The position numbers and the translations under genes are program-made. From a virus: 64,000 bases of DNA. The stretch lies in IMG/VR virus record IMGVR_UViG_3300007538_000022, positions 26,275-90,274 of that record. One strand, 5' to 3'. Under the pieces are notes generated by a model. It saw only the letters and a list, made by a program, of their open reading frames with translations, did no database searches and was not told the origin of the DNA. This document shows positions 40,107 to 58,228 of the stretch, one piece after another (the first letter of the stretch is position 1; each line of letters starts with the position of its first letter).

Positions 40107-40700
40107 TTAACCTCTATTAATAACAATTTCGTCTACTAAACCATATTCTAAACTTTGTTCAGCAGTCATAATATTATCACGATTCATATCATGTTCTAAT
40201 TCATCAAATGTTTTGCCTTTTGAATTATGCTTAACATATAGTTCTGTTAATGTTTTCTTCATTCTAACAATTTCTTTAGCATGTATTTCAATATCGCTTG
40301 CTTGTCCTTGTGCCCCTCCTAATGGTTGATGAATTAAATGTCTTGCATTAGGTAGCATTTTACGTTTACCCGGTGCTCCTGCCTGCGCTAAAAAAGAGCC
40401 CATTGAACATGCTTGACCCATTACAATAGTTTGAACATCTGGTTTAATAAATTGCATAGTGTCATAAATGCTTAATCCTGAAGTAATTACACCACCAGGT
40501 GAATTAATATACAAGTAAATATCTTTTTCAGAATTTTCTGATTCTAAGAATAACAATTGGGATACAATAGAGTTAGCAACATGATCATTAACTTCGCTAC
40601 ATAACATTACAATACGATCTTTTAATAATCGACTGTAAATATCCATAGCACGTTCGCCACGTGGACTTTGCTCGATTACCATTGGTACTAGATTAGTCAT
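40107..40700 (-). CDS. clpP: ClpP-type ATP-dependent protease proteolytic subunit
   Basis: A 197-aa protein of normal ClpP length. The catalytic triad is complete: Ser in [14 protein letters not shown], His in [10 protein letters not shown] and Asp in [31 protein letters not shown] and [16 protein letters not shown] are the usual oxyanion-hole and head-domain segments. It could form its own barrel or mix with the host ClpP and accept the host ClpA/ClpX. No Clp ATPase is in this window. With ClpS and tmRNA encoded nearby it points to phage control of proteolysis. Confidence 0.95.
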
Positions 40701-42022: not shown

Positions 42023-42244
42023 CTATAAACGTAAACTAATACGTCCTTTTGATAAATCATATGGGGATATTTCAAGCTTTACCTTGTCGCCGAGTACTAT
42101 TCTAATGTTAAATTTCCTCATTTTACCACTAGAATAACATATTACGGTATGATCTTGATCATCTAATTTAACTTTAAACATTTGGTTAGGTAAGATATCT
42201 GTAATTGTTCCAATTACTTCTATTAAATCTTTTTGTGTTGCCAT
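42023..42244 (-). CDS. infA: Translation initiation factor IF-1
   Basis: A 73-aa protein of full IF-1 length. IEVIGTITDILPNQMFKVKL, GKMRKFNIRIVLGDKVKLE and YDLSKGRISLRL follow the IF-1 OB-fold pattern. It would bind the 30S A-site region and bias translation initiation. Few phages are known to encode it. With bS21 and tmRNA nearby it suggests reprogramming of host ribosomes. Confidence 0.9.
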   Translation of the reverse strand: MATQKDLIEVIGTITDILPNQMFKVKLDDQDHTVICYSSGKMRKFNIRIVLGDKVKLEISPYDLSKGRISLRL

Positions 42245-44181: not shown

Positions 44182-44868
44182 TTAAATTTGCGGAAAAAGC
44201 ACATTTTCTGAAAAATATTCTAATTCATTGTCTGAAAATCCTAACTTTTTTAATACTGCAGGTGTTTTTGGATTTTGTTTTTGATTATGACAATAAAAAT
44301 TATGTTTCTTAATTACAGTCTCCGACAGTTCTGTGTTGTTAAACATCTGAATAGATGTTAAGTATTGATTTAACACTTTTAACATTAAATGAATAAGTAG
44401 AGATACTTCTGCAATATTTTGAATGTTGCCAGCAGCAATTATACGATCGCTAAAGATATTCTTTGCCCATTCTGGAAGAACTCGTTCTTTAGAAACAGAT
44501 GTATTTTTTACTAAAGAATAATATTGAGAAGATACTAAATGGTTAGCTCCGGCAGACCCTGGACTAACATCCAAAAATAAGCCAGTTACTTTGTTAGCAC
44601 CGGCTATAACATCAAACCCAAAAATTGGGCTATTATTAGTATGACTTGGAAAAATGCATAAATGCATCATCCATAATTTTTTTGTAGTTCTAGCATCGAT
44701 AATATTTAGATGTGCTCGACTTATGTAATCGTTAGTCCAACTTCGATTTATTGAAGTAACAGAATTAAATGGTAATGTATGTACAGGGATTTCAGTTGCA
44801 TATGTATTAACGCATGTAACTGCAGACTCTGCACATTTTTCTAATAAGTCCCATATTTCACTATTCAT
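44182..44868 (-). CDS. pcyX: Ferredoxin-dependent bilin reductase (PcyX/PebS type)
   Basis: About 228 aa from the ATG at 44868, which overlaps the heme oxygenase stop; an upstream ATG at 44886 is possible. SRAHLNIIDAR aligns with the His88 region of PcyA and SPIFGFDVIAGANKVTG with its Asp105 region, so the catalytic His and Asp are kept. The PcyA Glu76 position (ENR) reads INR here, so reduction of the 18-vinyl group is unlikely. Phage enzymes of this family (PebS, PcyX) reduce biliverdin to phycoerythrobilin. The PcyX assignment rests on phage context and likely host, so the subtype is uncertain. Confidence 0.8.
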   Translation of the reverse strand: MNSEIWDLLEKCAESAVTCVNTYATEIPVHTLPFNSVTSINRSWTNDYISRAHLNIIDARTTKKLWMMHLCIFPSHTNNSPIFGFDVIAGANKVTGLFLDVSPGSAGANHLVSSQYYSLVKNTSVSKERVLPEWAKNIFSDRIIAAGNIQNIAEVSLLIHLMLKVLNQYLTSIQMFNNTELSETVIKKHNFYCHNQKQNPKTPAVLKKLGFSDNELEYFSENVLFPQI

Positions 44869-45397
44869 ACAATTGACGAAAAACATTAATAATAAACTTA
44901 AAACACGTTTTAGCTTCGTCAGCCATTGTGTCGTCTAAGTTAGATTTAATAAATGATTTTAAAGCGTCAACATCCCCGTCAAATGTATACATTTTTCCAC
45001 TACCCGGAGTGCGAGATGCTAACAGTTGACCTCCATTTAAATCACCCATAAAGTGAACATATATATGTGACCACAGTTTATGTACATTATTGCTGATAGA
45101 GTATAGGTATGTAATATACTCAGTAGTACTAGTTAAGATTTTAGGAGGTTTATCGTATGGATTTAGCTCTAATAAGTCTTCAGATATATAGTTAGTTCGA
45201 TATAATTCGGTATGATCTTTAAATAAATTATGTAGTGTTATAAAAGATTCTAAAGTATTGTATATAAGATATCTATTTTGCAAAAAAACAACGTAATCGG
45301 CAGTATTAATATTATTATTAAGCAAATCTTTAACAAAAAGTTGATTTTCTGCTTCTTTGTGTAATTCCCAAATAGCTTTAGCTAATGTAGACATCAT
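44861..45397 (-). CDS. ho1: Heme oxygenase
   Basis: A 178-aa protein. The proximal heme ligand is the His of AIWELHKEAENQLF, and the distal helix reads YVHFMGDLNGGQLLASR, matching the GDLSGGQ signature. It opens heme to biliverdin, CO and iron, giving the substrate for the overlapping bilin reductase. Its start overlaps the clpS stop by 4 bases and its stop overlaps the reductase start, so clpS-ho-pcyX form one translationally coupled string. Confidence 0.9.
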   Translation of the reverse strand: MMSTLAKAIWELHKEAENQLFVKDLLNNNINTADYVVFLQNRYLIYNTLESFITLHNLFKDHTELYRTNYISEDLLELNPYDKPPKILTSTTEYITYLYSISNNVHKLWSHIYVHFMGDLNGGQLLASRTPGSGKMYTFDGDVDALKSFIKSNLDDTMADEAKTCFKFIINVFRQLYE

Positions 45398-45693
45398 TCT
45401 TCCTCTAATTTAATTTGTAATGGAAATCTGTGAGATCTACTTAACAGTTGTGCTTCTGAAGCTTTTTGTTCAGCAATCTCAAAGTGATAAACACCTACAA
45501 TAGCTGAGCCTTCGTTGTGGATTTTTGAAGTTAAGTTTATTGCAGATTGTTCAGAGTGTTTAAACACATTTATTAAAATGTTAATAACCCATTCAAACGG
45601 AGTTTGGTCGTCATTCACAAACACAACTTTATATTTTTTTGGTTTTTTAAGTGACTTTTTAGTTTTAGTATCTAATACAGCTTCGGTAGTCAT
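45394..45693 (-). CDS. clpS: ClpS N-degron adaptor
   Basis: A 99-aa protein. YKVVFVNDDQTPFEWVINIL holds the N-degron pocket residues Asn and Asp (NDDxTP), and KIHNEGSAIVGVYHFEIAE holds the conserved His. ClpS delivers proteins with destabilising N-termini to ClpA. A phage copy could redirect the host ClpAP or work with the phage ClpP encoded 5 kb away. Its C-terminal residues and length are normal. Confidence 0.93.
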   Translation of the reverse strand: MTTEAVLDTKTKKSLKKPKKYKVVFVNDDQTPFEWVINILINVFKHSEQSAINLTSKIHNEGSAIVGVYHFEIAEQKASEAQLLSRSHRFPLQIKLEEE

Positions 45694-46378: not shown

Positions 46379-48019
<1,641 letters not shown>

Positions 48020-48026
48020 CTATTTG

Positions 48027-48311
48027 TTACTGTACAACTGCTAAAATTTGTGATTCATCTAAAATTAGATAATCAACCCCATCTTCGGATACTTTAATAC
48101 CTGCCCCTTTATTAAAGATAACAGTATATCCAATCGATACTTCGAGAGGAACAATTTGTCCATCGGCAGTAACTCGACCACTGCCTACTTCACATACTTC
48201 CCCTTTGATTGGTTTTTCTTTAGCGTTGTCTGGAATAAATAAACCACCAGATGTTTTTGTTTCAGTTTCACAAGGTTTGACAAGAATTTTGTCACGAATT
48301 GGTTTCATCAT
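48027..48311 (-). CDS. groES: Cochaperonin GroES
   Basis: A 94-aa protein. MMKPIRDKILVKPCETETKT opens the beta-barrel, the mobile loop reads KTSGGLFIPDNAKEKP, and GDYLILDES-like VDYLILDESQILAVV closes it. The size is that of cellular GroES, unlike T4 gp31 which is longer and divergent. It is the first gene of the chaperonin pair. Confidence 0.95.
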   Translation of the reverse strand: MMKPIRDKILVKPCETETKTSGGLFIPDNAKEKPIKGEVCEVGSGRVTADGQIVPLEVSIGYTVIFNKGAGIKVSEDGVDYLILDESQILAVVQ

Positions 48312-48383: not shown

Positions 48384-48629
48384 TTAAAAAAGCCGTTTCG
48401 ATCTAATTGAATCTTTTTCAATCTTTTTCAAATGTCGAACTCTTCCTGCGGCTTTATCCTTTTTACGTTGTACACTAGGTTTAGTGTAAAACTCACGTTC
48501 ACGTAACAGTTGTAAAAGTCTGTCTTTTTGTACTAGTTTTTTAAGTTTTCTTAATGCAAAGTTTACGTCGTTATTTCTAACTTCTACAGAAAGACCTTTT
48601 ACTTTATTGTAACTTCGTTTGTTCTTCAA
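48384..48629 (-). CDS. rpsU: Ribosomal protein bS21
   Basis: An 81-aa protein starting with TTG at 48629, chosen because a strong GGAGG motif lies 5 bases upstream. LSVEVRNNDVNFALRKLKKL, REREFYTKPSVQRKKDKAAG and the basic C-terminus match bS21. bS21 sits near the anti-Shine-Dalgarno region of 16S rRNA, and phage copies are known in marine phages, including pelagiphages. It may favour phage mRNAs. Confidence 0.9.
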   Translation of the reverse strand: MKNKRSYNKVKGLSVEVRNNDVNFALRKLKKLVQKDRLLQLLREREFYTKPSVQRKKDKAAGRVRHLKKIEKDSIRSKRLF

Positions 48630-49017
48630 TCGTACCTCCTAAGATACTTGTTAGTATGTCTAATGAAATTATTTTATTATTACTTATAATACTATATATA
48701 CTTTTTGTTGCTTTTGATAACCAAAAAGTTTTCGATTTACTAATTAAAAAACTTAGCAAATCTCGCACACATCCAGATGTGTTATCTACATCAATAATAG
48801 CTATATCACACATGTTAAACGACGATAATAACCAGTTAATTTCTTCAGTTGTGTTTTCTAAACTATTATAATAGTAAATATTTATGTTTTTGTCAATTTT
48901 ATTTAGTAAAATGTCTTGTACATTTTCTTTTAATTCTATACTAGGGTATAACAATAATACTTGAAACGACTCGTTAAATAAGTTATCAGGGTATGAAATA
49001 ATGTTAATTTTATTCAT
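48604..49017 (-). CDS. Hypothetical protein, possibly receiver-like
   Basis: A 137-aa protein. VLLLYPSIELKENVQDILL, MCDIAIIDVDNTSGCVRDLL and FWLSKATKSIYSIISNN show alternating beta strands and helices like a small Rossmann or receiver-like fold. No catalytic motif was recognised. It overlaps bS21 by 26 bases and the nuclease by 8 bases. A promoter-like TTGACA-17-TATTAT lies inside it near 48854-48895 (minus), possibly for rpsU. Confidence 0.5.
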   Translation of the reverse strand: MNKINIISYPDNLFNESFQVLLLYPSIELKENVQDILLNKIDKNINIYYYNSLENTTEEINWLLSSFNMCDIAIIDVDNTSGCVRDLLSFLISKSKTFWLSKATKSIYSIISNNKIISLDILTSILGGTIEEQTKLQ

Positions 49018-49426
49018 TTATTACAATTAATCCCTCGTTAATCAGTTTAGCTCTATTTTGTAAATGTAAAACATCCCTTTCTTCTTTACTATCAACATAC
49101 GGAACAGCATATCCTTCTGATAACATTGTTTCAGCAACAGACACTGCATCTACTAAAAAGTCGCCTAAAATTCTTCCAAATTTACCTTTAAATTGATTAG
49201 ACACTAGTACAACTGTAGAACCATTATTAAAGATTTCTTTTAACCGTTTAGTAGATAATAATCCAAACTGTTTCTCAACTAAATCAGAAGATCTAGATTC
49301 AGGAGCATCAATCCCAACTATTCGCACCCTTTCATTATAAAGCCAGACTCCAAACCCTAAATCGATGTTAATATCAACTGTGTCACCGTCTACTATTTTA
49401 TTTATTACACAATTGTAACTGTACAT
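49010..49426 (-). CDS. Thermonuclease-like (SNase) nuclease
   Basis: A 138-aa protein. NKIVDGDTVDINIDLGFGVW, RVRIVGIDAPESRS, and FKGKFGRILGDF keep the SNase-fold Asp, Arg and Glu positions. It would cut DNA or RNA near calcium. There is no signal peptide, so it acts inside the host or virion. It lies just after the tmRNA terminator. Confidence 0.8.
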   Translation of the reverse strand: MYSYNCVINKIVDGDTVDINIDLGFGVWLYNERVRIVGIDAPESRSSDLVEKQFGLLSTKRLKEIFNNGSTVVLVSNQFKGKFGRILGDFLVDAVSVAETMLSEGYAVPYVDSKEERDVLHLQNRAKLINEGLIVINE

Positions 49427-49445
49427 AAAAAATAACCTATATGTG

Positions 49446-49474
49446 AAAAAAAGTTGGGGGATTTCTCCCCCAAC
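49446..49474 (-). terminator. Rho-independent terminator of the tmRNA gene
   Basis: The minus strand forms GTTGGGGGA-GAAA-TCCCCCAAC, a perfect 9-bp stem with a GAAA tetraloop, followed by seven T. It ends the tmRNA transcript just before the nuclease gene. Confidence 0.92.
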
Positions 49475-49916
49475 GGCATAAGTAGTTCTGTTGACCGGAT
49501 ACTTACAATCCGCGAACCTGCTGGTTATTAAGCAGCCATTTCCAGATCGGAAAACAATCCTTCAATTTTCAGTTCAGGGGTAAATGTTTTATTGTCATTT
49601 ACATTAATTACTTCTTTGTCTAATCTAATTAGACTTATGTTAATTCCGCGAATACTAATATTCAAGCATACATTAACAACGGTTTTCCGTATTAACCGAT
49701 TCTCACTATTACCAAACATACCACGTCGAAACTATGTCACCCCCATCGTAAGCACTATTCATTAACTAACGCATTACGATATTCGTCTTAGGTTTTTAAT
49801 TTGCTATGCTGGAAGATACCTTATCTCCCGATTACCACTTAATAGTGCTTATGGTGGAGGTGGCGGAGAATCGCACTCCGCGTCCGCAATATCCCTAATA
49901 ACAGGTCAACGAATTC
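49475..49916 (-). ncRNA. ssrA: Circularly permuted (two-piece) tmRNA
   Basis: In transcription order: acceptor piece (about 49916-49852) ending CACCTCC-ACCA with a T-arm at 49863-49881; intervening segment 49745-49851 with an 11-bp helix (49749-49759 with 49841-49851); then the coding piece starting at 49744 with GGGGGTGACATAGTTTCGAC. GGGGGTG pairs with CACCTCC (7 bp, one G-U). The tag frame is 49531-49602, starting VNDNKTF and ending DLEMAA followed by two stops. The helix CTGCT-TAATAACC-AGCAG spans the stop (49518-49535). GGTCAAC in the coding piece (49490-49496) pairs with GTTGACC in the acceptor piece (49904-49910). Piece ends and the resume codon are inferred. Confidence 0.93.
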
Positions 49917-50063
49917 TTAATAAAACTTATTTTTATATTTATAATCTAAGTCAATTCGAGCTTTTCTATCGAGGATCTTTCGTTCTTTCCACCAAGAAAT
50001 TGGAGGATCAAACTTAGAAAAGTAATCCTTAGGCCTTTGTTGAGATTTAATTTTTTTACTCAT
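49917..50063 (-). CDS. Small basic hypothetical protein
   Basis: A 48-aa protein (MSKKIKSQQRPKDYFSKFD, then SWWKERKILDRKARIDLDY), basic with two adjacent Trp. Its ATG overlaps the stop of the gene at 50056 (ATGAGTAA), so it is coupled, and it ends at the tmRNA. I recall similar small phage proteins with a PPxSWWKER motif but no function. Confidence 0.6.
   Translation of the reverse strand: MSKKIKSQQRPKDYFSKFDPPISWWKERKILDRKARIDLDYKYKNKFY
49936..49943 (-). promoter_or_regulatory. Late promoter box (TATAAATA) upstream of tmRNA
   Basis: The minus strand reads TATAAATA, the exact T4 late consensus, about 20 bases upstream of the tmRNA acceptor piece and inside the 3' end of the 48-aa gene. The tmRNA should therefore be made late. 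Confidence 0.6.
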
Positions 50064-50373
50064 TTGAAATAGCAATAGTTAAAACTTCTTTTAATGATAA
50101 CTTATTTAAGTCTGCAAAGCAACTTACAATAGATAAGTTTCCTTTTGACAAGTCACCACCGCAAAACATAATAATGTCTTGCTCAGTTAGCAATTCATTT
50201 TTATGTTGTGCCAACCAAAGCAATGCTAAAACAACAGCAGATGATGCTTTAGATTCGGAGATTCTATTTTGTTTTTTTATAAATCGAACTGCTTGATCTT
50301 TTACAGTTACATAATCTATAATACGATGTGTTAAGGATTCAAAATATGCGATTGTTTCTTGTCTAGGGGTCAT
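50056..50373 (-). CDS. Hypothetical helical protein
   Basis: A 105-aa mainly helical protein (MTPRQETIAYFESLTHRIID; SAVVLALLWLAQHKNELLTE). No motif was recognised. It overlaps the HAD phosphatase stop by 11 bases. Confidence 0.5.
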   Translation of the reverse strand: MTPRQETIAYFESLTHRIIDYVTVKDQAVRFIKKQNRISESKASSAVVLALLWLAQHKNELLTEQDIIMFCGGDLSKGNLSIVSCFADLNKLSLKEVLTIAISNE

Positions 50374-50959
50374 TGTATTGTTTAGTAGTTAAAATAAAAT
50401 TTGTAATTTCTTTCCATGTACTAAATCTATGTACGTTAGAATGCTCGATTTCTCTGTTATATTTATGATCTAAAATAATTGGTTGTAAATTATGCGATAA
50501 TCCATCAAAAATATTTTCCCATTTATCTTCAATCCAAAACATATTAGTATCTTTATACCTACTTAATGAATTATACTTGCTAGAGCTACATGGTAAACAT
50601 ATTATACTATTAAATGCGTAATAACCAAAGACATTTTTTAAATTTTTTTCCCTTAATGCAACGGAATACACATCATTTGAAAAACTAGTAATACATTCAA
50701 TTATAAATCCATTCCTACGTAGAGTATCGATACCTTGTTTAGCATCTCTTAATGCAGGTAAAAATCCAATCCACGACGAGTTATTAAATTCATTTACAAA
50801 GTTAATAGCAGTATTTACTGGAATTTCATAACGATCTGAAGGATAGTACGCATTCTCGTTTTTTATCTTATAAGATCCTTTTAAATTAAGCCATTCATGG
50901 AAATATTCATCCCAGTTAAGTAATACACCGTCGACATCGACTAATACTTTGTTAAACAT
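50363..50959 (-). CDS. HAD-family phosphatase
   Basis: A 198-aa protein. KVLVDVDGVLLNWD is HAD motif I (DxDG), ECITSFSND fits motif II and FWIEDKWEN motif IV. Possible roles are a 5'-nucleotidase or polynucleotide phosphatase; T4-like marine phages often carry such nucleotidases. The substrate is unknown. Confidence 0.75.
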   Translation of the reverse strand: MFNKVLVDVDGVLLNWDEYFHEWLNLKGSYKIKNENAYYPSDRYEIPVNTAINFVNEFNNSSWIGFLPALRDAKQGIDTLRRNGFIIECITSFSNDVYSVALREKNLKNVFGYYAFNSIICLPCSSSKYNSLSRYKDTNMFWIEDKWENIFDGLSHNLQPIILDHKYNREIEHSNVHRFSTWKEITNFILTTKQYNDP

Positions 50960-54841: not shown

Positions 54842-55357
54842 TTACAGTTTACATGCGCTACATTCTTCATCTGAATCAGTAGCAGAATCGTCAATTTCAC
54901 TTGGGTCAGTTTTATAATCGTATGTATTTGAATAATAAACTGTTTTTAATCCATACTTATATGATTGTAGTAAATCTTCAGTTAACACGCTCATTGGAAT
55001 TTCATTGTTAGAATACTGAGTTGGATTATAACTCCAGTTAGTTGAAATAGATTGATCAAAAAACTTTTGCATAACTGCCATTATATTTAAATATCCTTTA
55101 TTTGAAGGCATATCCCACAGTAAAGTATAATGGTTTTTAAGTGTTTGATATTGAGGTACAATTTGCTTTAGTGGTCCTTTTTTTGATTTTTTAACAGATA
55201 AAAACCCTCTAGGAGGTTCTACACCGTTAGTTGCATTAGACACAACTGAGCTGTTATGCGAGATTAAATTCTCAACAACGTAATGATGAACATCAGGAAC
55301 TTCGATGTCATACGTTGGTAACACTTCATTTAAAAACTCTACTTTTTTAACTTTCAT
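54842..55357 (-). CDS. nrdA: NrdA fragment 4: split-intein C-part plus C-terminal extein
   Basis: A 171-aa protein. Residues 1-35 are an intein C-terminal piece (MKVKKVEFLNEVLPTYDIEV ... HHYVVENLISHN, ending in the HN motif). Residue 36 is Ser, the +1 nucleophile. The extein SSVVSNATNGVEPPRG matches NrdA downstream of the P621-E623 active-site loop. The C-terminus ECSACKL is the redox-active Cys tail. It should be spliced in trans to fragment 3 at MPSES. A 2-base gap from fragment 3, with AAGGA overlapping its stop. Confidence 0.9.
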   Translation of the reverse strand: MKVKKVEFLNEVLPTYDIEVPDVHHYVVENLISHNSSVVSNATNGVEPPRGFLSVKKSKKGPLKQIVPQYQTLKNHYTLLWDMPSNKGYLNIMAVMQKFFDQSISTNWSYNPTQYSNNEIPMSVLTEDLLQSYKYGLKTVYYSNTYDYKTDPSEIDDSATDSDEECSACKL

Positions 55358-55359
55358 TA

Positions 55360-56307
55360 CTAATCCTTTAAGTTTAATTCAATAATATCATCATTTTCAT
55401 TTAATTCACTTGCATGCTTCCATAATGTTTGGTTATTTTCTGTTCGAACTAAGAATTTATGAGTCGGTGTACATTTAATTACTTTCCCATTATCTAAAGT
55501 AATCGATACAACTTCTTTATGACCGTTGAAATAAATTTTAGTTACTTCTTTATTCCCTTCAAGAGTTGGAACTATTAACGGTTCTTCTAACGTAAACCAT
55601 CCTATAGCATTATTTAATTCAATTCGATACCAACTAATATGATTCATTTCACAAATTTCGTGAAAGTTTAAATACCCTTTATTTGTTAAAATTTTATGTT
55701 CCCAGTTTAAGCACGATTCACTAGGCATTTGTGCAGATAATGTTGAATGACGTAAGCCATGTGTAACGATATCAGCTCTTAAACTTTCCCAATCGTAAGC
55801 AAGAGAATGTGGAACAATTAAGTCAACATCTTTTTTGTAAGTGTCAATTGGTAAGATTCCTTTTGAATATTTTGTACGGTTAAAATACAAACAAGGGCCT
55901 TTTTCTTTAGCTAAGTTGTTACTTGCTTTTAATAAGTAATATTGAAATGCCTCAGATAAATCGTGTACTAATTTCCAAGCCTTTGGATCATCATATTTCA
56001 CATGATGTTTAGCTAAGTAATGTGCTAACCCTACGTATCCGATTCCTAGAGATCTTCGAGCTTTAGTTTCAATTTCAGCCGCTTTAACAGGATATTCCTG
56101 ATAATCTATCAATTCATCTAAAGACCGTACAGTTAACTCGCACAGTTCTTCTAATTGATCTAAATGTTTAATAGATCCTAAATTAATAGCAGATAAAATG
56201 CAAAGAGCAATTGCAGGAGAATCTTTACTTACAATAACGTCTTCTTCAAAATACACATACTCATCGTCGTTATCGCACTCTGTTACAAAACTGTATAATT
56301 CATTCAT
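55360..56307 (-). CDS. nrdA: NrdA fragment 3: middle extein plus split-intein N-part
   Basis: A 315-aa protein. Residues 1-30 (MNELYSFVTECDNDDEYVYF...) have no clear NrdA counterpart. From PAIALCILSAINLG on (C462 equivalent in E. coli numbering) it follows NrdA to LSAQMPSES at 198. At residue 199 a second intein begins (CLNWEHKILT), with block B KVIKCTPTHKFLV. This N-terminal intein piece has no stop-spanning linker to its C-part, so splicing would be in trans. Its N-terminus is not joined to fragment 2 by any visible intein. Confidence 0.88.
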   Translation of the reverse strand: MNELYSFVTECDNDDEYVYFEEDVIVSKDSPAIALCILSAINLGSIKHLDQLEELCELTVRSLDELIDYQEYPVKAAEIETKARRSLGIGYVGLAHYLAKHHVKYDDPKAWKLVHDLSEAFQYYLLKASNNLAKEKGPCLYFNRTKYSKGILPIDTYKKDVDLIVPHSLAYDWESLRADIVTHGLRHSTLSAQMPSESCLNWEHKILTNKGYLNFHEICEMNHISWYRIELNNAIGWFTLEEPLIVPTLEGNKEVTKIYFNGHKEVVSITLDNGKVIKCTPTHKFLVRTENNQTLWKHASELNENDDIIELNLKD

Positions 56308-56318
56308 TATATTTCCTT

Positions 56319-56576
56319 TTAAATAGAACGATCTTGTAAATAATTACCAATCGATTTTTTGTACTCATTGTACTTATCCATATCTGATTTCTTAACTTTT
56401 ACTAATCGTTTTTCAGTAGTGCCGATGTCATCGATGTGTTGCAATGGAGTAGTAGGTAACGTAATTTCTTGGCAATTGTGTACAAGAATGTCATTTGCAT
56501 AAAAATTATGATTATCCTCGACGGTTATATCGTAAACTTCAATAGGGGCATCTAAATATTCTATAATTAAACTCAT
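56319..56576 (-). CDS. nrdA: NrdA fragment 2: split-intein C-part plus short extein
   Basis: An 85-aa protein. Residues 1-34 are an intein C-piece (IEVYDITVEDNHNFYANDIL, ending LVHN). Residue 35 is Cys, the +1 residue and also the catalytic thiyl-radical Cys of NrdA (E. coli C439, in NLCQEITLPT). The next 50 residues run TPLQHIDD and then an unusual Lys-rich tail (EKRLVKVKKSDMDKYNEYKK) to a stop. It starts 12 bases after fragment 1 with its own ribosome binding site. Confidence 0.88.
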   Translation of the reverse strand: MSLIIEYLDAPIEVYDITVEDNHNFYANDILVHNCQEITLPTTPLQHIDDIGTTEKRLVKVKKSDMDKYNEYKKSIGNYLQDRSI

Positions 56577-56587
56577 TGTGTATTTCC

Positions 56588-58228
56588 TTATTCTTGTGAA
56601 AAATTATTTATTATACGTAATTTGTCGGTTTCTGTCAAGTTTTTTGCTAACACATAACCTCTATTTTCAGTATAAACTTTATGCTCTGGTGTACATATAA
56701 TGGATTTACCGGACGTTGAGTCTGTAATTTTCATTACCTTAGCAGAAGTGTTAGTTAACGCACTGTTAGAAATCCGTTTGTATTCAGACTTTTGAGTGTA
56801 TTCGTTAAACGATAGTACATCAATAGTTTCGCCATTATGAAAATGTGTATTAGCTTGTTCTAATGTAATAGCTTGTTCGGTATTATTTACAATAGCATGG
56901 ATAATAGTATCACCGGACAAACACAAGTTACTCATATAAACAGTATCTAAAAATGAACTATGATTATTACAATGATCGGTAAACATTATATACAATCTGC
57001 CAGTTTCAGTTTTTTCTTTAATTAAAGTAGAAAACAGTTCAACAGCAGGAACTACTGATTGTTTAATATTTGAATTTTTTTCATATGCAGAATATAATTT
57101 AGAAAATACATCAGGGTCTCCAAAATACGCTTCGTATAAATCTGGAACGTCATGAGGGGAAAATAAAGTAATATTTCCATTACTGAGAAATCTCTCAATC
57201 ATAGTTTTATTAATTTGAATAGAATAATCTAATTTTCTAACTCGATTATCTTCAGTACCTTTGTTGTTTTTCAAAACTAATATATCTTTAATTTCTTGAT
57301 GCCAAATTGGAAAATGAACAGTTGCACTTCCACCTCTAACACCGTTTTGTGTACAGCATTTAACAGTAGATTCAAATTTCTTTAAAAATGGAATAACGCC
57401 AGTATGTGCAACTTCTCCTCCTCTAACTTTAGAGTTTACTCCTCTAATTCTTCCAGAATTAATACCTATACCTGCACGTAAAGCAGTATACCGACCAATA
57501 GCCATATCACTTGAAAAAATGCTGTTTAACGTATCGTCGCTATCAACTAGCACACAACTAGCATACTGCCGTACAGGAGTCCTAACGCCTGCATTTACAG
57601 GGGTTGGAATATTAATATGAAATAATGATAGTCCGTCGTAATATTTTTTAATATAATGCATACGAGATGCTTTATCGTATTGAGAAAACATAGTAGCAGC
57701 AATCATAATGTACATTATTTGAGGAGTCTCAAAAATTTGTCCAGTTGATCTGTCTTGAACTAAATATTTGTCAACAATTTGTCTTAACCCTGCATATGTA
57801 AAGTTTTCATCGCGATTATAATGGATCATTGATTCTAATTTTTCTATGTCTTCTTTAGAAAACATATCTAAAAATGATTTATCATACACTCCTCGATTAA
57901 CATTAGAAACAATAATATCATACAAAGGAACCGGTCGATATTGTCCGTACACCTGTTTGTTTAAATTATAACTCATTAAACGAGCAGCAGCATATTGATA
58001 ATTAGGAGATTCTAATGATATTAAATCACTAGCAGACCTAATAAGGATTTTTTGTATTTCATGGGTACTCATTTTGTTATAAAATTGTAAATTTGCATTC
58101 ATTTCAATTTGACTAGCACTTACTCCTGCAAGATTTGCACATGCCTCCTCTACTACAAAATGAATCTTTTCAATGTTTAATGGTTCTTCGACCCCATCGC
58201 GTTTAACGATCATAATCTGTTCTGACAT
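56588..58228 (-). CDS. nrdA: NrdA fragment 1: N-terminal extein plus split-intein N-part
   Basis: A 546-aa protein. The ATP-cone-like start (IMIVKRDGVEEPLNIEKIHF) leads into the NrdA alpha domain, with YASCVLVD at the C225 equivalent and GIGINSGRIRGVNSKVRGGE near the substrate site. The extein ends at residue 435 (YMSNL) and an N-terminal intein piece of 111 residues begins CLSGDTII, with block B SIICTPEHKVYTENRGYV. The splice with fragment 2 would restore SNLCQEITLPT. No homing endonuclease remains in the intein. Confidence 0.9.
   Translation of the reverse strand: MSEQIMIVKRDGVEEPLNIEKIHFVVEEACANLAGVSASQIEMNANLQFYNKMSTHEIQKILIRSASDLISLESPNYQYAAARLMSYNLNKQVYGQYRPVPLYDIIVSNVNRGVYDKSFLDMFSKEDIEKLESMIHYNRDENFTYAGLRQIVDKYLVQDRSTGQIFETPQIMYIMIAATMFSQYDKASRMHYIKKYYDGLSLFHINIPTPVNAGVRTPVRQYASCVLVDSDDTLNSIFSSDMAIGRYTALRAGIGINSGRIRGVNSKVRGGEVAHTGVIPFLKKFESTVKCCTQNGVRGGSATVHFPIWHQEIKDILVLKNNKGTEDNRVRKLDYSIQINKTMIERFLSNGNITLFSPHDVPDLYEAYFGDPDVFSKLYSAYEKNSNIKQSVVPAVELFSTLIKEKTETGRLYIMFTDHCNNHSSFLDTVYMSNLCLSGDTIIHAIVNNTEQAITLEQANTHFHNGETIDVLSFNEYTQKSEYKRISNSALTNTSAKVMKITDSTSGKSIICTPEHKVYTENRGYVLAKNLTETDKLRIINNFSQE
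56610..56638 (-). promoter_or_regulatory. Consensus sigma70 promoter inside the NrdA split point
   Basis: On the minus strand TTGACA (56633-56638), a 17-base spacer and TATAAT (56610-56615), a perfect match. It lies inside the last intein codons of fragment 1, some 27 bases from the likely transcript start to the ATG of fragment 2, so fragments 2-4 and nrdB can be transcribed on their own. Confidence 0.65.

Follow-up and report, generated by a model that had tools for sequence, protein, structure and literature searches.

A genuine but structurally deviant two-piece tmRNA gene in a phage genome encoding Clp proteins

Identification of the tmRNA gene

The DNA analysed here, from an uncultured aquatic phage, is a 64-kb window of a 90,274-base IMG/VR virus record, which may itself be a fragment. 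At positions 49916-49453 of the minus strand, the window contains a circularly permuted (two-piece) tmRNA gene, in which the acceptor piece precedes the coding piece (Table 1). This order, evident in the sequence, was also seen in the alignment with the Rfam model RF04321 (tmRNA_permuted), which was built by merging the alpha, beta and cyano models (PMC11915505). Window positions 49915-49528 on the minus strand covered the whole model with 73.1 bits (E=3.9e-12 for the 64-kb window), above the gathering cut-off of 47 bits. This score is low compared with those of most bacterial permuted tmRNAs (113-167 bits), which counts against a working tmRNA. Of the other model checks proposed in the first-pass annotation, alpha_tmRNA yielded a partial match of 43.1 bits, under its cut-off of 50, and ARAGORN reported no tmRNA gene within the 64-kb window. 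The fold of 49919-49475 was better than those of 100 of 100 shuffled sequences (z=-3.56). The 7-bp acceptor helix, the perfect 11-bp helix around the intervening segment, the tag frame with an Ala-Ala end and tandem stops, and the perfect terminator, all described in the first-pass annotation, are present as it stated. The RF04321 match, together with the covariation and synteny described below, supports its identification of a phage-encoded, circularly permuted tmRNA, and we conclude that 49916-49453 is a genuine but structurally deviant two-piece tmRNA gene.

A sister contig (IMGVR_UViG_3300025655_000108) shows 99.9% identity to the record across 12.3 kb. The two tmRNA genes differ at a single position (49782, A/G), which lies inside the intervening segment that is expected to be removed. 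A comparison with GenBank phages by DNA similarity gave no match.

Table 1. The tmRNA gene and its neighbours in the 64-kb window, listed in minus-strand order
Feature	Position	Strand	Sequence or remarks	Basis
HAD-like gene (phrog_420)	50363..50959	-	conserved 5' neighbour of tmRNA	
TATAAATA box	49936..49943	-	in relatives, the sigma-70 promoter has its -10 here; without properly spaced -35	
Acceptor piece	49852..49916	-	5' piece of precursor: P2 strands, T-arm, acceptor 3' strand, CCA	RF04321 alignment, covariation
P2a strand	49911..49914	-	AUUC, partner GAAU 49702-49699	covariation over 28 tmRNAs
P2b strand	49896..49901	-	UUAUUA, partner UAAUAG 49711-49706 (L363: GUAAUG/CAUUAC)	
P2c strand	49885..49892	-	AUAUUGCG, partner CGUGGUAU 49725-49718	
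T-arm	49863..49881	-	6-bp stem GCGGAG/CTCCGC, 7-nt loop UGCGAUU, 19 nt	
Acceptor 3' strand	49852..49862	-	CACCTCC + ACCA (encoded CCA 49854-49852)	
Acceptor helix	49862-49856/49744-49738	-	7 bp, with G3.U70	
Intervening segment	49745..49851	-	107 nt, expected to be removed in maturation	
Helix closing intervening segment	49851-49841/49759-49749	-	TAAGCACTATT/AATAGTGCTTA, 11 bp, perfect	
Coding piece	49528..49744	-	acceptor 5' strand, D-loop-like region, P2 partners, pseudoknot-like region, tag frame	
Acceptor 5' strand	49744-49738	-	GGGGGUG, G3.U70	RF04321 alignment, covariation
D-loop-like region		-	TTTCGACG, in coding piece, 3' of acceptor 5' strand	
P2 partner strands	49725-49699	-	followed by pseudoknot-like region	
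Resume signal	49606..49611	-	GUAAUU; A at -4 is 49609 if resume codon is AAU 49605-49603	
Tag frame	49528..49605	-	NVNDNKTFTPELKIEGLFSDLEMAA, 25 codons (49605-49531) + TAA; second TAA 49527-49525 (TAA TAA 49530-49525)	
3' pseudoknot	49475..49518	-	S1 CGGAU/AUCCG, S2 UAAGU/ACUUA	by eye
Intrinsic terminator	49453..49474	-	GTTGGGGGAGAAATCCCCCAAC + T7, 9 pairs	
SNase-like nuclease gene	49010..49426	-	conserved 3' neighbour of tmRNA	
Ribosomal protein bS21	48384..48629	-		
GroEL and GroES	46379..48311	-	GroES read from sequence	
ClpS adaptor	45394..45693	-	about 4 kb downstream of tmRNA	PF02617, E=5.4e-27
Translation initiation factor IF-1	42023..42244	-		
ClpP	40107..40700	-		PF00574, E=5e-79

Conservation of the secondary structure

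Covariation was analysed for the 30 pairs of the window structure in 28 tmRNAs, namely the window tmRNA and 27 other viral permuted tmRNAs. Paired cells accounted for 84.5%, compared with 64.4% in shuffles and 39-53% when the structure was slid, and the covariation score was 0.511 versus 0.159 in shuffles (0 of 500) and a maximum of 0.115 when slid. The acceptor, T and P2 helices covary strongly; a lack of covariation in the acceptor helix would have spoken against the first-pass annotation. The acceptor and T helices are paired in 100% of cells, and the U-G pair of the acceptor (G3.U70) is invariant (28/28). In P2a, 98.2% of cells are paired, and for each of its four pairs there is some sequence in which both bases differ. 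Pairing is weaker in P2b (48%) and P2c (79%), partly because the register varies among the sequences. When the P2 strands of 56 tmRNAs were compared, with relatedness not removed, cognate strands gave -14.6 kcal/mol and swapped strands -11.4 kcal/mol (0 of 5000 permutations).

The proposed GTTGACC/GGTCAAC pairing between the two pieces fared differently. Both strings are present (49910-49904 and 49496-49490), but the pairing is not conserved: across 58 tmRNAs, strings from one RNA paired no better than strings swapped between RNAs (permutation p=0.28), and a 7-mer complement of this kind arises by chance in 15% of shuffles. GGTCAAC belongs instead to the 3' pseudoknot, where it is overlapped by a recurring CAACAGAA linker.

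Viral relatives and the conserved locus

The clamp-loader protein of the phage has 342 relatives in uncultured viral contigs, and nearly all of the best 80 show 72-75% identity; the nearest GenBank phages by this protein are the jumbo phage PA5oct and its kin (52%). RF04321 matches above the cut-off were obtained in 2 of the 50 contigs searched in the clamp-loader group (G026, 111 bits; G021, 98.5 bits). The G026 tmRNA gene lies between the same neighbours as that of the window, with the HAD-like phrog_420 gene upstream and the SNase gene downstream. In the collected loci, ARAGORN identified 61 distinct permuted tmRNAs, and a screen that does not depend on the T-stem added approximately 19.

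The window tmRNA gene is part of a one-strand block that consists of NrdB, glutaredoxin (Grx), a 95-residue protein, the HAD gene, the tmRNA, SNase and S21. This block is common, wholly or partly, to several contigs (L256/L134, L471 and L140). Five contigs (L471, L365, L366, L370 and L437) were fetched by the tmRNA motif alone and also carry parts of the block; therefore, the synteny is not only an artefact of locus retrieval. Because this conserved same-strand block is common to other viral contigs, the tmRNA gene is a resident phage gene. Host ssrA genes serve as prophage integration sites (PMC9004378), and a temperate phage could have gained a host ssrA copy by imprecise excision and carried it as a passenger, without phage function. 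We consider such an origin highly improbable, given that the gene is intact, that it lies in an internal block common to divergent viral contigs and that the bacterial tmRNAs sampled include none close to the window tmRNA.

Several other features were observed in these genomes. Contig G026 contains a cluster of 18 tRNA genes (L090, 116039-119082), and ARAGORN found none in the 64-kb window. The NrdA region (54842-58228, minus strand) is divided into separate ORFs with junctions that resemble intein halves by eye: C-GDTIIHAIVN occurs near the end of one ORF and HNFYANDILVHNC near the start of the next, and the junction between 55360-56307 and 54842-55357 is similar. The NrdA ORFs thus apparently carry split inteins. 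In L005 (9740-13101, minus strand), a family B DNA polymerase shows a comparable split: the break falls at the YGDTDS motif, and each of the two ORFs has, by eye, an intein-like end. A heme oxygenase gene followed by a ferredoxin-dependent bilin reductase-like gene (phrog_7278) was found at 44182-45397 (minus strand), and homologues of both are located just downstream of the tmRNA in the viral contigs L388, L407 and L421.

Host lineage

The first-pass annotation regarded the permuted tmRNA as a marker of the likely host lineage. With a support of 0.925, the tmRNA core does fall among permuted tmRNAs of the betaproteobacterial type and apart from those of the alpha type, and the closest matches of the phage GroEL are beta/gammaproteobacterial, at most 67%. 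However, the syntenic tmRNA of G026 (L087) is of the alpha type despite having the same flanking genes as window positions 49010-50959, and the tmRNA is therefore a weak host marker. This difference may possibly reflect in-place replacement of the tmRNA at the shared locus. Among 37 named genomes that are close by GroEL, only one contains a permuted tmRNA above the cut-off.

Promoter region

The first-pass annotation proposed that a late promoter drives the tmRNA gene. The TATAAATA string on which this rested is present upstream (49943-49936), but a T4-type late-promoter function is not supported by the motif counts, in which TATAAATA is not enriched upstream of phage genes. It occurs 11 times in the window, compared with 20.65 copies expected, and 99 of 100 shuffles contain at least as many. 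The whole record contains 12 copies, only four of which are on the coding strand, which carries 111 of the 117 selected ORFs. Furthermore, a sigma-70 type promoter (at least 10 of 12 matches) is located just upstream of the tmRNA in 32 of 60 relatives, whereas approximately 2.4 would be expected. Its form is mostly TTGACA-N17-TATAAA, with a 17-base spacer in 30 of the 32 and TATAAA as the -10 in most, and it occupies the position of the TATAAATA box. The proposal that the tmRNA acts late in infection is not supported either. The best sigma-70 fit in the window is 9/12, the level found in shuffles, and no -35 is present. Because the -35 is absent and the TATAAATA box falls within a small upstream ORF (49917-50075), the tmRNA may be transcribed by read-through from upstream genes.

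Deviations in the T-stem, resume codon and tag

Two deviations were overlooked in the first-pass annotation. First, the T-stem consists of 6 bp rather than 5, which produces a 13-bp acceptor-T stack and a T-arm of 19 nt, compared with 17 nt in viral relatives; the 7-nt loop, UGCGAUU, is the same as in L112 and L407. The T-stem is 5 bp in all 60 of the parsed viral relatives found by ARAGORN. Since these relatives could have been selected for 5-bp T-stems, the T-stem-independent screen was performed, and the approximately 19 further relatives that it yielded all have a 5-bp stem, so that each of about 79 viral relatives compared differs from the window in this respect. Bacterial permuted tmRNAs (n=30) also mostly have 5-bp T-stems (L515 has an unusual T-arm and L494 was not parsed). 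A 5-bp T-stem is thus usual, not defining, for permuted tmRNAs. The inserted bases pair with each other and occur in the window record as well as in the sister contig; the insertion is therefore not a sequencing slip. The additional pair could weaken interactions with EF-Tu, SmpB or RNase P, which counts against a working tmRNA.

Second, the resume codon is not an alanine codon (AAU or GUA), whereas alanine (GCN) is found in 60 of 61 relatives. The A at position -4 of the resume codon is invariant in the relatives (61/61), and in one E. coli assay its replacement by C or U abolished activity (PMC2481249). By this rule, the first codon is AAU. GUA, which aligns with GCA, was rejected because a start there would have U at -4, a change expected to abolish activity (PMC2481249). 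If AAU is the resume codon, the resume signal retains A at -4 and leads into an open tag frame with Ala-Ala just before the stop. An alanine resume codon is likewise usual, not defining, but its replacement here, unlike the state in 60 of the 61 relatives, would count against the reading as a working tmRNA.

The tag of 25 residues, ending in EMAA, is also long: the relatives usually have tags of 9-15 residues, and a few have tags of 17-29. Long tags were observed in other viral permuted tmRNAs (29 residues in L194, 24 in L134/L256, 20 in L426 and 18 in L355), and the L426 tag, ANDNFKPELSFDFDGVLEAA, resembles that of the window. A ACATTTACNCCTGAACT search for long-tag homologues yielded 25 matches, and since, besides the sister contig, the sole tmRNA among them was that of L134/L256, the common TFTPEL may be due to chance. 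The 3' module of L134 is only about 0.72 identical to that of the window, and a mosaic origin of tag and core is suspected. The tmRNA core of L426 is 99% identical to that of L359, the gene of which runs off its contig, and 90% identical to that of L401; L426 and L401 differ strongly in the tag and 3' region. It is possible that tag cassettes have been exchanged between these phage tmRNAs.

These deviations raise two alternatives to a working tmRNA. The gene may be decaying, a once-canonical phage tmRNA that is now losing its function, as the low RF04321 score, the missing -35, the odd T-stem and the non-alanine resume codon could suggest. This seems quite unlikely to us, considering that the additional T-stem bases lie on both strands and pair, that the acceptor and P2 pairings are intact and covarying, that the open frame with tandem stops and the perfect terminator are retained and that the one sister-contig difference falls in the segment expected to be removed. 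Alternatively, the RNA may be a decoy that binds host SmpB or stalled ribosomes but works poorly, and so blocks host trans-translation rather than taking it over. The 13-bp stack and the resume codon, in which it differs from its relatives, would fit such a role, and inhibition of this kind is reported for a tmRNA limited to the tRNA-like domain (TLD), like that of mycobacteriophage DS6A (PMC4131195). However, the full tag frame, resume signal, tandem stops and 3' pseudoknot have been kept, although a decoy would not need them, and the relatives at the same locus look canonical; we therefore regard a decoy as improbable.

Proteostasis and translation genes

The 90-kb record encodes ClpA, ClpP, ClpS, DnaJ, GroEL, GroES, Hsp20, IF-1 and bS21. 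The best solved match of its ClpA (748 aa) is E. coli ClpA, and its ClpP and ClpS have their namesakes as best matches. Nearly every contig of the clamp-loader group has a Clp ATPase, and the three tmRNA carriers in this group (G000, G026 and G021) all contain ClpA, ClpP and ClpS. ClpS was found on 7 of 21 tmRNA-bearing contigs, compared with 2 of 24 others, and its absence from the remaining 14, many of which are short, counts against the function proposed below. Two contigs with clpS and no tmRNA (G038 and G048) are uninformative, because clpS lies 6.3 kb and 2.3 kb, respectively, from their upstream ends; the tmRNA-clpS separation in G026 and G021 is roughly 9.5 kb, beyond these ends. In G000, G026, G021, G052 and G055, clpS is on the same strand as the tmRNA, 4-12 kb further downstream. 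Given that the contigs are fragmentary and related, the tmRNA-clpS association may be taken as a lead.

One could imagine from this gene content a private phage pathway, either tag-and-destroy or tag-and-spare, in which a tmRNA with a 13-bp stack and a long tag would be tuned to the phage's own ClpA-ClpP-ClpS. We consider this unlikely; if true, proteins from ribosomes stalled during infection would be handled by phage machinery and not by the host degradation route. SmpB was found neither in the 90-kb record nor among the 45 records searched, and thus host SmpB must serve, a dependence that counts against the reading as a working tmRNA.

Proposed function

Taken together, we favour the reading that the phage encodes a resident, functional two-piece tmRNA, with a probability of roughly 70%, and that this deviant RNA probably acts in trans-translation with host SmpB. 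A precursor that starts at a promoter close to the TATAAATA box, or that arises by read-through from upstream, would end at the 49453 terminator. Host tRNA-processing enzymes would cut it and remove the intervening segment, and the acceptor and P2 helices would then hold the acceptor and coding pieces to each other. The RNA would be charged via G3.U70 by host AlaRS, and host SmpB and EF-Tu would bring it to stalled ribosomes. Translation would resume at AAU (49605), adding Ala and NVNDNKTFTPELKIEGLFSDLEMAA; the ribosome would be freed, and the tagged protein would pass to Clp proteases, possibly phage ClpAP with ClpS.

Comparison with known phage tmRNAs

The tmRNA genes of Bxz1-type phages are of the standard one-piece form. 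Like the present phage, mycobacteriophages of the Bxz1 type and DS6A, and Bacillus phage G, encode tmRNAs, but the tmRNA of DS6A is little more than a tRNA-like domain, unlike the full tmRNA of the window (PMC4131195). A 2025 tmRNA database contains 79 bacteriophage tmRNA sequences (PMC11915505). As a member of the RF04321 family, the window tmRNA exceeds the gathering score and covers the whole model, and it is set apart by its low score and its T-stem insertion.

According to a 2022 report, a two-piece tmRNA is encoded by the Methylophilales phage Melnitz, and ARAGORN suggested 53 two-piece tmRNAs among 18,146 phage genomes, nearly all of them aquatic (PMC9004378). The window resembles Melnitz in having a permuted two-piece tmRNA encoded by a resident ssrA of an aquatic phage. 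The Melnitz tmRNA is predicted there to lie downstream of an early promoter and to be under glutamine riboswitch control, whereas no riboswitch above the Rfam gathering threshold was found in the window. An additional T-stem pair or a 25-codon tag is not described for Melnitz or the 53 tmRNAs in the accessible text of that report (PMC9004378). The Sinorhizobium jumbo phage AP-J-162 likewise combines a tmRNA gene with genes for Clp proteins, S21, GroES, Hsp20 and DnaJ; its account, in the accessible portion, draws no tmRNA-Clp connection and does not state whether the tmRNA is permuted or standard (PMC11242549).

A phage-borne two-piece tmRNA was thus already known, whereas the T-stem/tag variant and the clpS neighbourhood have no match in the accessible text of the reports cited here. 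Set beside these systems, the present case illustrates the extent to which a phage tmRNA can diverge with its architecture kept, in a form that ARAGORN overlooks. With clpS linked to the tmRNA, and clpA and clpP also encoded by these phages, it becomes testable whether phages combine trans-translation with a protease of their own, and the approximately 79 other permuted tmRNAs of viral contigs provide a set in which such questions can be asked.
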